Shown: piece by piece, positions 2,106 through 6,005 of the stretch
Numbering within the stretch: the stretch's first letter is position 1
Layout of the letters: every line of letters starts with the position of its first letter
Program-made: the position numbers and the translations under genes
Source of the DNA: a virus
Virus record (IMG/VR): IMGVR_UViG_3300040801_000798
Span: 1-28,780 of that record
DNA: 28,780 nt
Reading direction: 5' to 3' (one strand)
The notes under the pieces: model-generated
Seen by the model: the letters and a program-made list of their open reading frames with translations, nothing else
Told to the model about the DNA's origin: nothing
Databases searched by the model: none

Positions 2106-3119
2106 ATGAAGCTCAAGAAGAGAGGTAAGACCTACATCCTCGACGGCTACATAAACGGCCAGAGGATACGCATATCGACGGGGTGCCAGGACCTAGGGGA
2201 GGCCAAAGCGGTCGCCCCTGGGCTCTGGGCCCAGGCCATGACGGAGAGCATCGAAAAGAGCGGGACCGGATTGACTCTGGCTAATGCTTTCCAGCGGTTG
2301 ATGGATGAGGAATGGAGCAAGCAGCGGGATGTCCACCACACCCAAGCGAGGATCGATGAGATCACGGAGATTCTCGGCCCGAAGACGCGACTGGTGGACA
2401 TCGACCGAGCCGCCCTCGTGCGTCTCCAGGAAGAGCTCCGGAAGAAGACGGGGCGCAACGTCAACAAGCCCGCCTCGCCGGCGACCGTGAATCGGAAGAT
2501 GGCCGTGATCCAACGGTTACTCCGGGTTGCCTGTGAGGAATGGGAGGAGCTCTCCTCTGTTCCCAAGGTGCGCCCCCTAAAGACCCCGAAGACCAAGATG
2601 CGGGGCATCACTACGGCTGAGATGCGGACGCTTATGAAGCTCGTCCCCGCGGACGCCGCTCAGGTCTTCAAGTTCCTCATCGAGACCGGTCTGCGGGTAG
2701 GGGAGTGGGACCAACTCTCGTGGTCAGCTATCGATTTCGAGGAGAACGTGATCCGCCTTGATCCCACTCAGATGGACATCAAGACGCACTCAGAGCGTAC
2801 CCTACCGATGACCCAAAGCACGAGAGATATGCTCTTAGAGAGGCGCTCGCGGGGTCTCACGGCACCGTTCTCGGACGTTGGTCGGGACTACATCTGGTAT
2901 CACTTCAAGAAAGCCCGCAAAGCGATGGGCCTCGAGGGTGACCGGGGGTTCGTCCTGCATGCTCTTCGGCACACCACCGCCACACGTCTCATCGACAAAG
3001 GCGTACCGACCTCGACCGTTCAGAAGTGGCTCGGCCATTCGTCGATCACCACGACTGAGCGATACATCCAACAGTCAGACAAGGAGCTCCACAAATATGC
3101 CAAGCTCGTAGAGGTGTGA
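2106..3119 (+). CDS. int: Tyrosine-type integrase
   Basis: A 337-residue site-specific recombinase of the lambda integrase superfamily that would insert phage DNA into the host chromosome. Residues ~1-45 form an arm-type DNA-binding domain (three strands, GYINGQRIRISTG). Residues ~55-155 are the core-binding SAM-like domain (TVNRKMAVIQRLLRVA). The catalytic domain shows R197 (TGLRVGEW), the beta-hairpin K226, H285 and R288 (LHALRHTTATRL), H311 (WLGHSS) and the nucleophile Y320 (TTERYIQ), so the active site is complete. It starts after an AGGAGG site. The attP described below begins within 140 bases of its stop, the usual int-attP arrangement. Integrases in T7-like phages are known in cyanophages and pelagiphages but are unusual. 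Confidence 0.95.
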   Translation: MKLKKRGKTYILDGYINGQRIRISTGCQDLGEAKAVAPGLWAQAMTESIEKSGTGLTLANAFQRLMDEEWSKQRDVHHTQARIDEITEILGPKTRLVDIDRAALVRLQEELRKKTGRNVNKPASPATVNRKMAVIQRLLRVACEEWEELSSVPKVRPLKTPKTKMRGITTAEMRTLMKLVPADAAQVFKFLIETGLRVGEWDQLSWSAIDFEENVIRLDPTQMDIKTHSERTLPMTQSTRDMLLERRSRGLTAPFSDVGRDYIWYHFKKARKAMGLEGDRGFVLHALRHTTATRLIDKGVPTSTVQKWLGHSSITTTERYIQQSDKELHKYAKLVEV

Positions 3120-3209
3120 CCCCAGGCGTGGTCACATCGCACTCGCGGCATGCGTGACCAAACGTGTGCCCAAATGTGACCAGCCGTGACCTGATTAGGT
3201 CACACCCGA

Positions 3210-3342
3210 GACGTAAGGTGTTGTTTTATATAGGGTAATCGCCCTCTCAAGGGATTCGTAATGCGTAGGTCGTCTGTTCGAATCAGACTGTCGGCACCAC
3301 TACCTACCCTCCGAATCTCCTTCTAAGACAACACCTTACGTC
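3210..3342. repeat. 18-nt inverted repeat bracketing the attP core
   Basis: GACGTAAGGTGTTGTTTT (3210-3227) matches the reverse complement of 3325-3342 (AAGACAACACCTTACGTC) at 17 of 18 positions. The inner gaps to the tRNA-like core are 26 and 25 bases, so the arrangement is nearly symmetric. This is what paired integrase arm sites or an accessory-protein site would look like. The rest of the 3120-3499 stretch holds no gene. Confidence 0.75.
3254..3299 (+). other. attP core: 3' half of a tRNA-Thr(CGU) gene
   Basis: The segment reads as the tRNA from position 31 of the anticodon arm to the CCA end: anticodon loop TTCGTAA (anticodon CGT), 3' stem TGCGT, variable loop AGGTC, T-arm GTCTG-TTCGAAT-CAGAC, acceptor strand TGTCGGC, discriminator A, then CCA. 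It closely resembles E. coli tRNA-Thr(CGU) from memory. The 5' half is absent: the bases before it (GGG) cannot pair with the 3' anticodon stem, and no GCCGACA acceptor strand lies upstream. So it is not a functional tRNA but the identity block through which integration would rebuild the host gene. Confidence 0.85.
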
Positions 3343-3425
3343 ATTCCCTGGGCCCACTTTCCGGGCCGAAACCAATTCCATTAGGACCGAACGCGACCAA
3401 ACCTGTGACCACCTTAAGGCATTGA

Positions 3426-3439
3426 TTTCCATACGGAAA
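3426..3439. promoter_or_regulatory. Palindrome copy 1 (TTTCCATACGGAAA)
   Basis: A 14-nt near-perfect palindrome that recurs after the RNA polymerase gene at 5951-5964. It lies 32 bases upstream of the first TAGGTGGGGC element. A dimeric repressor or activator site is the natural reading; the protein is unknown, and the MarR-like product of this phage is one candidate. Confidence 0.5.
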
Positions 3440-3471
3440 CAATGAATGCGGGTGCCCAAAGCAACTTAAGT

Positions 3472-3494
3472 GCCCTGCATTAGGTGGGGCTTAC
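3472..3494 (+). promoter_or_regulatory. Candidate phage RNA polymerase promoter, copy 1
   Basis: GCCCTGCATTAGGTGGGGC followed by TTAC, shared with the site at 5981-6005 and, for its core TAGGTGGGGC, with the site at 15971-15981. It lies just upstream of the polymerase gene. Recurrence in intergenic positions of one orientation is what a T7-type promoter set looks like, with initiation plausibly at the AGG or GGGG. GCCC and GGGC can also pair as a short RNA hairpin, so an RNA element is an alternative. Confidence 0.5.
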
Positions 3495-3520
3495 CGTAGA
3501 TGACAATGGAGATCACCACT

Positions 3521-5947
3521 ATGAGTGAAGAACGTCAGCTAGAACAAGAGAAAGAGTCCGTCACCCTTGGGGCTCTCAAGTACGAGAAGAGTCTCAAGTA
3601 CCACGACAGAAACAACACGCTGGATCAGACCGCACCGGCCCGTCAGTTGATGCGCCACGCTATCGACGAGGTATCGGAGGCCATCGAGCTCGACCGTAAC
3701 CGGAAGCGCCGGGGGCGGGGACGCACGTACCTCCCTCTCGTGGAGACCATCGAGTCCGACGTTCTCGCGGCGCATGCACTCCGGGCTCTGCTCGCTAAGC
3801 TCGTCCAACTCCCGACACACACGGCGGTCTGCGCCACGTTGGGCAAGGCCCTCGTTGAGGAGCTCAACTGGCGGAAGTTCTACGACCAGGACCGCGTCCA
3901 CCACGATACGACCCAGACGATCAGCAAGAAGTCCACGGGGTACCGCCGAGTCCGGGCGATGCGGAAGATGTTCTCCCGCGCCCACATCACGCCGGTCACC
4001 TGGACCAACGAGGAGCAGGTCCGGGTGGGCCATTGGCTAATCGAGATTGTCATCGCCGTCACGGGATGGGGCGTCTTCGGTAAGCGCCGCGTCGGGAAGA
4101 ACAAGACGGAGCGGGTGATCAACCCGACCCAAGACTTCCTTTCATGGGTAGAGGACGCACACACGCAGCTTGCTTCACTCAATCCCGTCCGCCTTCCGAT
4201 GGTCTGCAAACCTCTGCCGTGGACCTCCCCGACCGAGGGCGGCTACCTCACGGACCTCGGCGGCGAGGTGAGCATCGTCAAGTCCTATAACCGGGGGTAC
4301 CTCGAGTCCCTCGAGCAGGTAGACATGCCGGAGGTGTACGAGGCGCTCAATGCCATCCAAGACACGCCCTGGGAGATCAACGAGTTCGTTCTCGATGTCG
4401 CCCAGAAGATGTGGGAGGAGGGGATTGCGGTCGGCCCTCGGGGCTCTGAGTCCATGCCTAGCCGCCGGCCCTTCGAGGTGTCCGCCTTCCCTGCTCAATG
4501 GGAGGGCAAGGTAGACGAGTGGAAGAAGGAAGACGAGGAAGGCTACCGGAGGTGGTGCAAACGTGCCGCCCAGGTACACCGGGAGAACGCCCGTCTCTTC
4601 TCGAAGCGTCTGTCTTGCGGTACCAAGCTGAGTCTCGCCGAGAGGTACCGGGGGGATACGATCTACTTCCCGCACCAGATGGACTTTCGGGGACGCGTTT
4701 ACCCCATCCCGGCGCACCTCAACCCGCAGGGGGACGACCTCGCGAAGGCGCTCCTCCAGTTCGCCCAAGGTAAGCCACTCACCGCTGACGGGGTGCCCTG
4801 GCTTATGGTCCACGTAGCGAACTGCTTCGGTGTGGACAAGGTCAGCTTCGAAGAGCGCATCGCTTGGACGGAGACTCATCTTGAGGCCCTCATCGATTCC
4901 GGCTTTGATCCGGTGGACGGGGAACGCTTCTGGATGACGGCGGATGACCCGTTCTTGGCGCTCGCCGCTTGCAGGGAGCTCGCTGGGTGGTCGATTGCCG
5001 GGGATAACTACGTCTCAAAGATTCCAATCAGCATGGATGGCTCCTGCAATGGGCTCCAGAACTTCTCTGCCATGCTCAAGGATGAAGTGGGAGGCCGTGC
5101 CACCAACCTCGTACCTTTGGACAAACCTGCGGACGTCTACCAGGAGGTGGCGGACATCGTCGCTAAGAAGATCCGCGCCAAGGCGGAAGCAGGAGAGCCC
5201 GAGGCCATCGGTCTCGACGGGTACATCTCCCGGTCACTCGTGAAGCAGCCTGTCATGACCCAGCCGTACGGTGCCACCATCGCCGGCATGCGTCAGCAAC
5301 TCTTGGACGCCCTCCGCAAGTCCGACCTTCTGGAGACCGTAGTGGGTTCCCAGAGGTCGTGGCATGTGGGAGGCTACCTTGGGTTTATCGTTCACGAGTC
5401 CATCGGCGAGGTGGTGATCGCTGCTCGACAAGCAATGGACTGGCTCCAAGAGACGGCCCAGATCGTGGCATCCGAGGAGTACCCGCTCCGGTGGACTACG
5501 CCGGTGGGCCTTCCGGTGCTCCAAGAGTACAAGCGGTTCGACGCCAAGCGGATGATCATCTACATCCAGGGGCAGCGAAGCGAGATGTACACCCGGATCG
5601 AGGGCAAGAAGCTGGACCGCAACCGGATGCGCCAGGGCATCAGTCCGAACCTCATCCACTCTTTCGACGCGGCCCATATGATGAAGACCACCAACCTCGC
5701 CAAAGCCAATGGGATCGAGTCCTTTGCCATGATCCACGACAGCTTTGGCACCCATGCATGCGACACCCCGCTGTTGCATCAATGCATCCGCGAGTCTTTC
5801 GTAGAGATGTATCGGCCCAACCTCCTGGCCCAGTTCAAGGAGCAGCTTGAGAGCCAGATTCCCGAGGACATCGAGCTCCCTGAGCTCCCTCCCGAAGGTA
5901 CGCTGGACCTCGATCAGGTCAAGGAATCACGCTATTTCTTTGCCTGA
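3521..5947 (+). CDS. 1: T7-type single-subunit DNA-directed RNA polymerase
   Basis: Transcribes the phage's middle and late genes from phage-specific promoters. The start chosen is ATG 3521, with GGAG nine bases upstream; ATGs at 3500 and 3506 are in frame but lack a site. Counting from 3521 (808 aa; T7 is 883), DFRGRVYP carries R392 (T7 R425). SMDGSCNGLQNFSAM carries the first catalytic aspartate, D506 (T7 D537). K575 and Y583 match T7 K631 and Y639 with the same spacing. IHDSFGT has H739 and D740 (T7 H811, D812). The C-terminus ends in FFA, like the T7 FA foot that contacts the active site. The N-terminal 300 residues, which hold promoter-recognition parts in T7, are divergent. It is flanked by matching palindromes and candidate promoters. 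Confidence 0.98.
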   Translation: MSEERQLEQEKESVTLGALKYEKSLKYHDRNNTLDQTAPARQLMRHAIDEVSEAIELDRNRKRRGRGRTYLPLVETIESDVLAAHALRALLAKLVQLPTHTAVCATLGKALVEELNWRKFYDQDRVHHDTTQTISKKSTGYRRVRAMRKMFSRAHITPVTWTNEEQVRVGHWLIEIVIAVTGWGVFGKRRVGKNKTERVINPTQDFLSWVEDAHTQLASLNPVRLPMVCKPLPWTSPTEGGYLTDLGGEVSIVKSYNRGYLESLEQVDMPEVYEALNAIQDTPWEINEFVLDVAQKMWEEGIAVGPRGSESMPSRRPFEVSAFPAQWEGKVDEWKKEDEEGYRRWCKRAAQVHRENARLFSKRLSCGTKLSLAERYRGDTIYFPHQMDFRGRVYPIPAHLNPQGDDLAKALLQFAQGKPLTADGVPWLMVHVANCFGVDKVSFEERIAWTETHLEALIDSGFDPVDGERFWMTADDPFLALAACRELAGWSIAGDNYVSKIPISMDGSCNGLQNFSAMLKDEVGGRATNLVPLDKPADVYQEVADIVAKKIRAKAEAGEPEAIGLDGYISRSLVKQPVMTQPYGATIAGMRQQLLDALRKSDLLETVVGSQRSWHVGGYLGFIVHESIGEVVIAARQAMDWLQETAQIVASEEYPLRWTTPVGLPVLQEYKRFDAKRMIIYIQGQRSEMYTRIEGKKLDRNRMRQGISPNLIHSFDAAHMMKTTNLAKANGIESFAMIHDSFGTHACDTPLLHQCIRESFVEMYRPNLLAQFKEQLESQIPEDIELPELPPEGTLDLDQVKESRYFFA

Positions 5948-5950
5948 AGG

Positions 5951-5964
5951 TTTCCATATGGAAA
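5951..5964. promoter_or_regulatory. Palindrome copy 2 (TTTCCATATGGAAA)
   Basis: A perfect 14-nt palindrome four bases after the polymerase stop, differing from the copy at 3426-3439 by one base. It lies 16 bases before the second TAGGTGGGGC element. Having the pair of palindrome plus promoter-like element on both sides of the polymerase gene argues for a shared control protein or a duplicated regulatory cassette. Confidence 0.5.
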
Positions 5965-5980
5965 TCAAAGAGATATGGAA

Positions 5981-6005
5981 GCCCTGCCTTTTAGGTGGGG
6001 CTAAC
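5981..6005 (+). promoter_or_regulatory. Candidate phage RNA polymerase promoter, copy 2
   Basis: GCCCTGCCTTTTAGGTGGGG followed by CTAAC, two bases longer in the spacer than the 3472 copy. It is placed directly before the ssDNA-binding protein gene, where T7 relatives switch to phage-polymerase transcription of the replication genes. AGCCC and GGGCT could form a five-pair hairpin across it, so an RNA role cannot be excluded. Confidence 0.55.

Follow-up and report, generated by a model that had tools for sequence, protein, structure and literature searches.

Positions 3254-3299 of the window (the whole viral record analysed here, 28,780 nt or 28.8 kb) are almost certainly the phage attachment site (attP) of a temperate member of the Autographiviridae, as judged from the sequence and the neighbouring genes, and through this stretch the phage probably splices into a bacterial threonine-tRNA gene. 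We consider it likely that the site has a lambda-like build, which combines a tRNA-Thr core, arm sites of the form GTG[AC]CCAAA and paired bending sites. The attP of T7-like temperate phages has so far mostly been reported as a mere tRNA match, and the anatomy of core, arm sites and bending sites proposed here can be tested. The attP of the window is probably ordinary but well-resolved; what is new is the arm motif, its use for finding attP and the probable bending sites. A pair of GTG[AC]CCAAA copies locates such sites in virome contigs without an integrase query, and hosts can be predicted from the tRNA core.

A tRNA-Thr(CGU) core between the integrase and RNA polymerase genes

T7-like replication and structure genes are present in the window, where profile matches include a T7-type RNA polymerase, a DnaB-like helicase-primase, PolA and a head-tail connector. 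Around the attP, three genes follow each other on the plus strand: a MarR-like transcription regulator gene at 1771-2097 (PHROG 9665 transcriptional regulator, E 1e-12; its start codon is uncertain and a longer ORF begins at 1489), a tyrosine integrase gene of 337 aa at 2106-3119 (Pfam PF00589, E 4e-27; PHROG 1, E 1e-49) and a T7-type single-subunit RNA polymerase gene at 3500-5947 (PF00940, E 2e-118; PHROG 414, E 6e-252). The integrase gene (int) thus ends directly upstream of the core, as the initial annotation had stated, and the int-RNA polymerase gap extends from the int stop at 3119 to the polymerase start at 3500. The catalytic residues of the integrase (R197, K226, H285, R288, H311 and Y320) are conserved and invariant in the alignment, while the integrase as a query found no close match in viral contigs. 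The same order, marR-int-attP-RNA polymerase, is found in the isolated phages HTVC019P, P-SSP7, CRP-125, CRP-171 and RHEph21, and the position of marR is common to the window, HTVC019P, P-SSP7, LUZ100 and the CRP phages. LUZ100 carries marR, int and the polymerase gene in this order, but has its tRNA-Leu between marR and int; Pasto has additional genes ahead of the polymerase gene.

On both sides of the RNA polymerase gene, a palindrome TTTCCATAYGGAAA (3426-3439 and 5951-5964) is followed by TTAGGTGGGGCTWAC (3480-3494 and 5991-6005). These copies may be promoters or operators, because the phage-specific promoters of LUZ100 sit at these two places. A TATAGGG in the left arm of the inverted repeat described below was considered as a promoter for the single-subunit polymerase and rejected, since it has no other copy in promoter context.

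The identity block ATTCGTAATGCGTAGGTCGTCTGTTCGAATCAGACTGTCGGCACCA (3254-3299, plus strand) corresponds exactly, over 46 nt, to tRNA-Thr(CGU) from base 31 to CCA, which bears out the initial reading of the core. ARAGORN called no tRNA from the block alone, and called a complete tRNA-Thr(cgt) once a script had placed a natural 5′ half from bacteria in front of it; the tRNA part shows no damage, and its pairing with natural 5′ halves is perfect. Rfam gave nothing beyond a tRNA match below threshold. Just 5′ of the block the phage has AGGG vs ACGC or similar in whole bacterial tRNA-Thr(CGU) genes, so the identity between phage and tRNA begins at base 31. As all the whole bacterial genes seen diverge just upstream of this base, the anticodon loop, TTCGTAA (3255-3261, plus strand), is the probable place of the crossover and the putative strand-exchange region. 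Orphan tRNA-Thr(CGU) 3′ parts with the same start base occur at three bacterial loci (L056, L058 and L112) and in one other phage contig (L120), which suggests that other elements also use the tRNA-Thr(CGU) site. The three bacterial ones, in gammaproteobacterial genomes, lack a 5′ half and are read as remnants or ends of other integrated elements. In another gammaproteobacterial genome (L091, about 5011-5826), the end of an integrase gene and a tRNA-Thr(CGU) gene are ~110 bp apart. The anticodon arm might have a degenerate inverted copy in the right flank (3300-3323), an idea that was dropped, as the pairing excess is weak (18 and 46 of 2000 shuffles).

A bacterial gene with exactly this 3′ part had also been expected, but the 46-mer has no exact match in GTDB species genomes (about 85,000). 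Neither did the 46-nt block at ≤3 mismatches match in a sample of 369 genomes, nor its 35-nt prefix in viral contigs. Among 385 sampled genomes of the alphaproteobacterial class, the nearest was one small genome with 2 mismatches, the closest of all, and a second member of its order showed 3 mismatches. Since the exact target gene is absent from the bacterial genomes searched, the integration site is inferred from the core, and neither host nor integrated form has been seen.

Direct repeats as candidate integrase arm sites

Copies resembling TGTGACCA are concentrated in the int-RNA polymerase gap. It turned out that 9 of the 25 copies of GTG[AC]CC[AT] in the window lie inside the gap vs 0.33 expected, and the full GTG[AC]CCAAA is inside the gap in 3 of 4 cases in the window and, within the DNA examined, in 3 of 3 in each of two other IMG/VR phages, L136 and L139. 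All three phages carry a GTG[AC]CCAAA pair exactly 12 bp apart 5′ of the core and more copies 3′ of it. The pair of the window consists of the putative P-arm sites GTGACCAAA (3154-3162) and GTGCCCAAA (3166-3174), and a weaker P-arm-like copy, GTGACCAGC, follows at 3176-3184, noted for the clustering of GTG[AC]CC[AT] in the gap. On the other side, the putative P′-arm sites are GCGACCAAA (3393-3401, 1 mismatch), GTGACCACC (3405-3413), 12 bp from it, and a second GTGCCCAAA (3452-3460); all six copies are on the plus strand.

When viromes (IMG/VR) were scanned with the 12-bp pair alone, 45 stretches were retrieved, 23 of which have a tyrosine integrase within 700 bp (a count that has no background rate), and many also contain the 3′ end of a tRNA and, downstream, more copies of the motif. 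The candidate arm sites stand outside the inverted repeat on both sides of the core, like the repeated arm sites of lambda-type systems. The initial annotation had taken the inverted repeat for the integrase arm sites; the GTG[AC]CCAAA direct repeats further out fit better as candidates, and the inverted repeat matches paired IHF-type sites.

The inverted repeat and its possible roles

The inverted repeat noticed initially was reproduced with 17 of 18 positions paired (3210-3227 and 3325-3342), 26 and 25 bases from the 46-nt block, and it extends to 18 of 19 (3210-3228 and 3324-3342). No other looped inverted repeat in the window is as long as its 15-nt perfect part, and when the gap was shuffled 20,000 times with dinucleotides preserved, a perfect repeat of this length never arose, so it is not a chance feature; the 19-nt arm has no match in viral contigs. 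The near-equal spacing had been taken to indicate paired protein sites. The arms do behave like paired sites, but the spacing argument is weak, because relative to the anticodon (3257-3259) they have their centres near -39 and +75 and are thus asymmetric about the anticodon-loop crossover. The longest internal repeats of the arm-defined loci fall into two groups, the window, L326, L328, L297 and L304 at p <= 0.0025 and the others near chance. The view that T7-like attP sites generally carry a long inverted repeat was rejected, as most relatives are without one and the repeat of L149 is a terminator.

The IHF consensus is WATCAANNNNTTR (PMC8942017), and in lambda the IHF sites are located between arm and core sites (PMC4880445). 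The motif came to notice only after the repeats had been seen. In the window, the left arm (3210-3228, minus strand) holds a putative IHF-type bending site AAACAACACCTTA with 1 mismatch and the right arm (3324-3342, plus strand) a putative site AGACAACACCTTA with 2 mismatches, which are not significant alone. L136 has AATCAACACCTTG as far, or nearly as far, from its arm pair as the left site of the window is from its own, and CAACACCTT is common to the two. Between arms and core, 39 regions (some related, not all independent) contain 18 exact consensus sites vs 0.6 expected; 3 of 24 independent loci have exact sites to either side of the core, oriented as predicted, vs 0.00 in shuffles, and none has them in the opposite orientation. 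The 17-nt perfect repeat of L326 is made up of two exact consensus sites. A good match on both sides is absent from most arm-defined loci, and the significant repeats of L328, L297 and L304 are counter-cases that fit the consensus poorly. From the exact pairs in attP intervals, the composition of the L326 repeat, the near-matches of the window and the CAACACCTT shared with L136, it seems reasonably probable that the inverted repeat represents paired IHF-type bending sites.

Other roles were weighed against this one. The repeat might itself be the pair of integrase arm sites, leaving the GTG[AC]CCAAA repeats to another protein (an excisionase or the MarR-like regulator). There is a precedent, since pelagiphages have a single inverted pair around the core, AGGATAGTTG/CAACTATTCT at about -70/+70, which is conserved in sequence in 41 loci (25 distinct arm pairs) and may be arm sites; it has sharp bounds like a protein site, and part of it is kept in HTVC109P despite a different tRNA core. 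In these pairs (L203, L210 and L217-L274, after int) the two copies show an invariant G-to-A difference. In the window, however, the repeat is inside the GTG[AC]CCAAA sites and not outside, and this motif and its 12-bp spacing persist across phages whose repeats differ or are absent, which makes the repeat rather unlikely as the arm-site pair. Slightly less doubtful, but still unlikely, is an RNA hairpin across attP in the int-RNA polymerase transcript, acting as an RNase III site, a terminator or an int retroregulator. The folding energy (z = -6.6) agrees with it, as does the lone mismatch, which is a U.G pair when the int-sense strand is folded, and this strand pairs better (-28.0 vs -24.6 kcal/mol); in contrast to many relatives, the window shows no recognisable intrinsic terminator in the gap, and LUZ100 has a strong terminator 3′ of int (PMC10134795). 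But any long inverted repeat trivially gives such a folding energy, no T tract follows the stem, and IHF motifs account for the repeats of L326 and L320 without RNA. The pelagiphage set shows no covariation outside its conserved motif, and there the hairpin was rejected in view of this and the sequence-level conservation.

Because integration separates the arms, only the free phage would have such a hairpin. In a variant that we regard as very unlikely, the attP core would be in the loop of the hairpin and integration would end a control over the expression of int or RNA polymerase, a logic comparable to lambda sib retroregulation. An alternative in which an imprecise excision long ago left the 46-nt block behind as a passive scar, in a phage that no longer integrates, would agree with the missing exact target gene and with T7-like cyanophages integrating without stable lysogens (PMC8776855); it is highly improbable given the intact catalytic residues, the undamaged tRNA part with its perfect pairing and the candidate arm sites to the left and right of the core.

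With the lambda-like build, the integrase encoded directly upstream would make its cut within the anticodon loop and link the phage to the chromosome, where the phage-borne 3′ part would restore the host tRNA-Thr(CGU). The N-terminal domain of the integrase would hold the GTG[AC]CCAAA arm sites flanking the core, and the inverted repeat would offer two opposed sites at which a bending protein, for example IHF, would fold the arms back onto the core.

Comparison with known attachment sites

T7-like cyanophages integrate at tRNA-Leu, and experiments on one such phage showed that both int and attP are required (PMC8776855). The int and RNA polymerase genes flank attP-like gaps in many phages, several of which have tRNA pieces there, of different identity (Leu in L002 and L129, a CAU anticodon in L136, Asn in L139 and His in L123). 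In L002, a T7-like relative, a predicted ORF upstream (320-961) is rich in pentapeptide-like repeats (GANLSGADLYGA). In some pelagiphages and P-SSP7, the gap holds a tRNA 5′ part (Leu, Arg) and not a 3′ part (L211 4023-4278, L206 5769-6038 and the int-RNA polymerase gaps of L212-L214).

P-SSP7, S-TIP37 and HTVC019P, like the window, have a tRNA-derived core pointing to a crossover in the anticodon region. The cores themselves differ, being tRNA-Leu in the cyanophages, a tRNA-Cys-like piece in HTVC019P and tRNA-Thr(CGU) in the window, and so do the flanking repeats, which are AGGATAGTTG in HTVC019P and GTG[AC]CCAAA arms in the window. L136 and L139 share with the window the arm pairs, int upstream and the polymerase gene downstream, but their cores come from a tRNA with a CAU anticodon and from tRNA-Asn(GUU), neither has a long inverted repeat, and their integrases are only about 28% identical to that of the window. 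Conversely, L120 (IMGVR_UViG_3300028024_000025) has the tRNA-Thr(CGU) core with the same start base next to an integrase gene, yet it is a different phage, with a 27% identical integrase, the core on the strand opposite int, TGTGGC-like flanking repeats and no long repeat.

Unlike lambda, the window has a tRNA gene as target, another arm motif, a wider spacing on the P′ side and no recognised Xis or Fis sites, and its IHF sites are putative. Nevertheless, it resembles lambda in its heterobivalent type of tyrosine integrase, with a predicted arm-binding domain, and in the proposed order of arm sites, bending site, core, bending site and arm sites.
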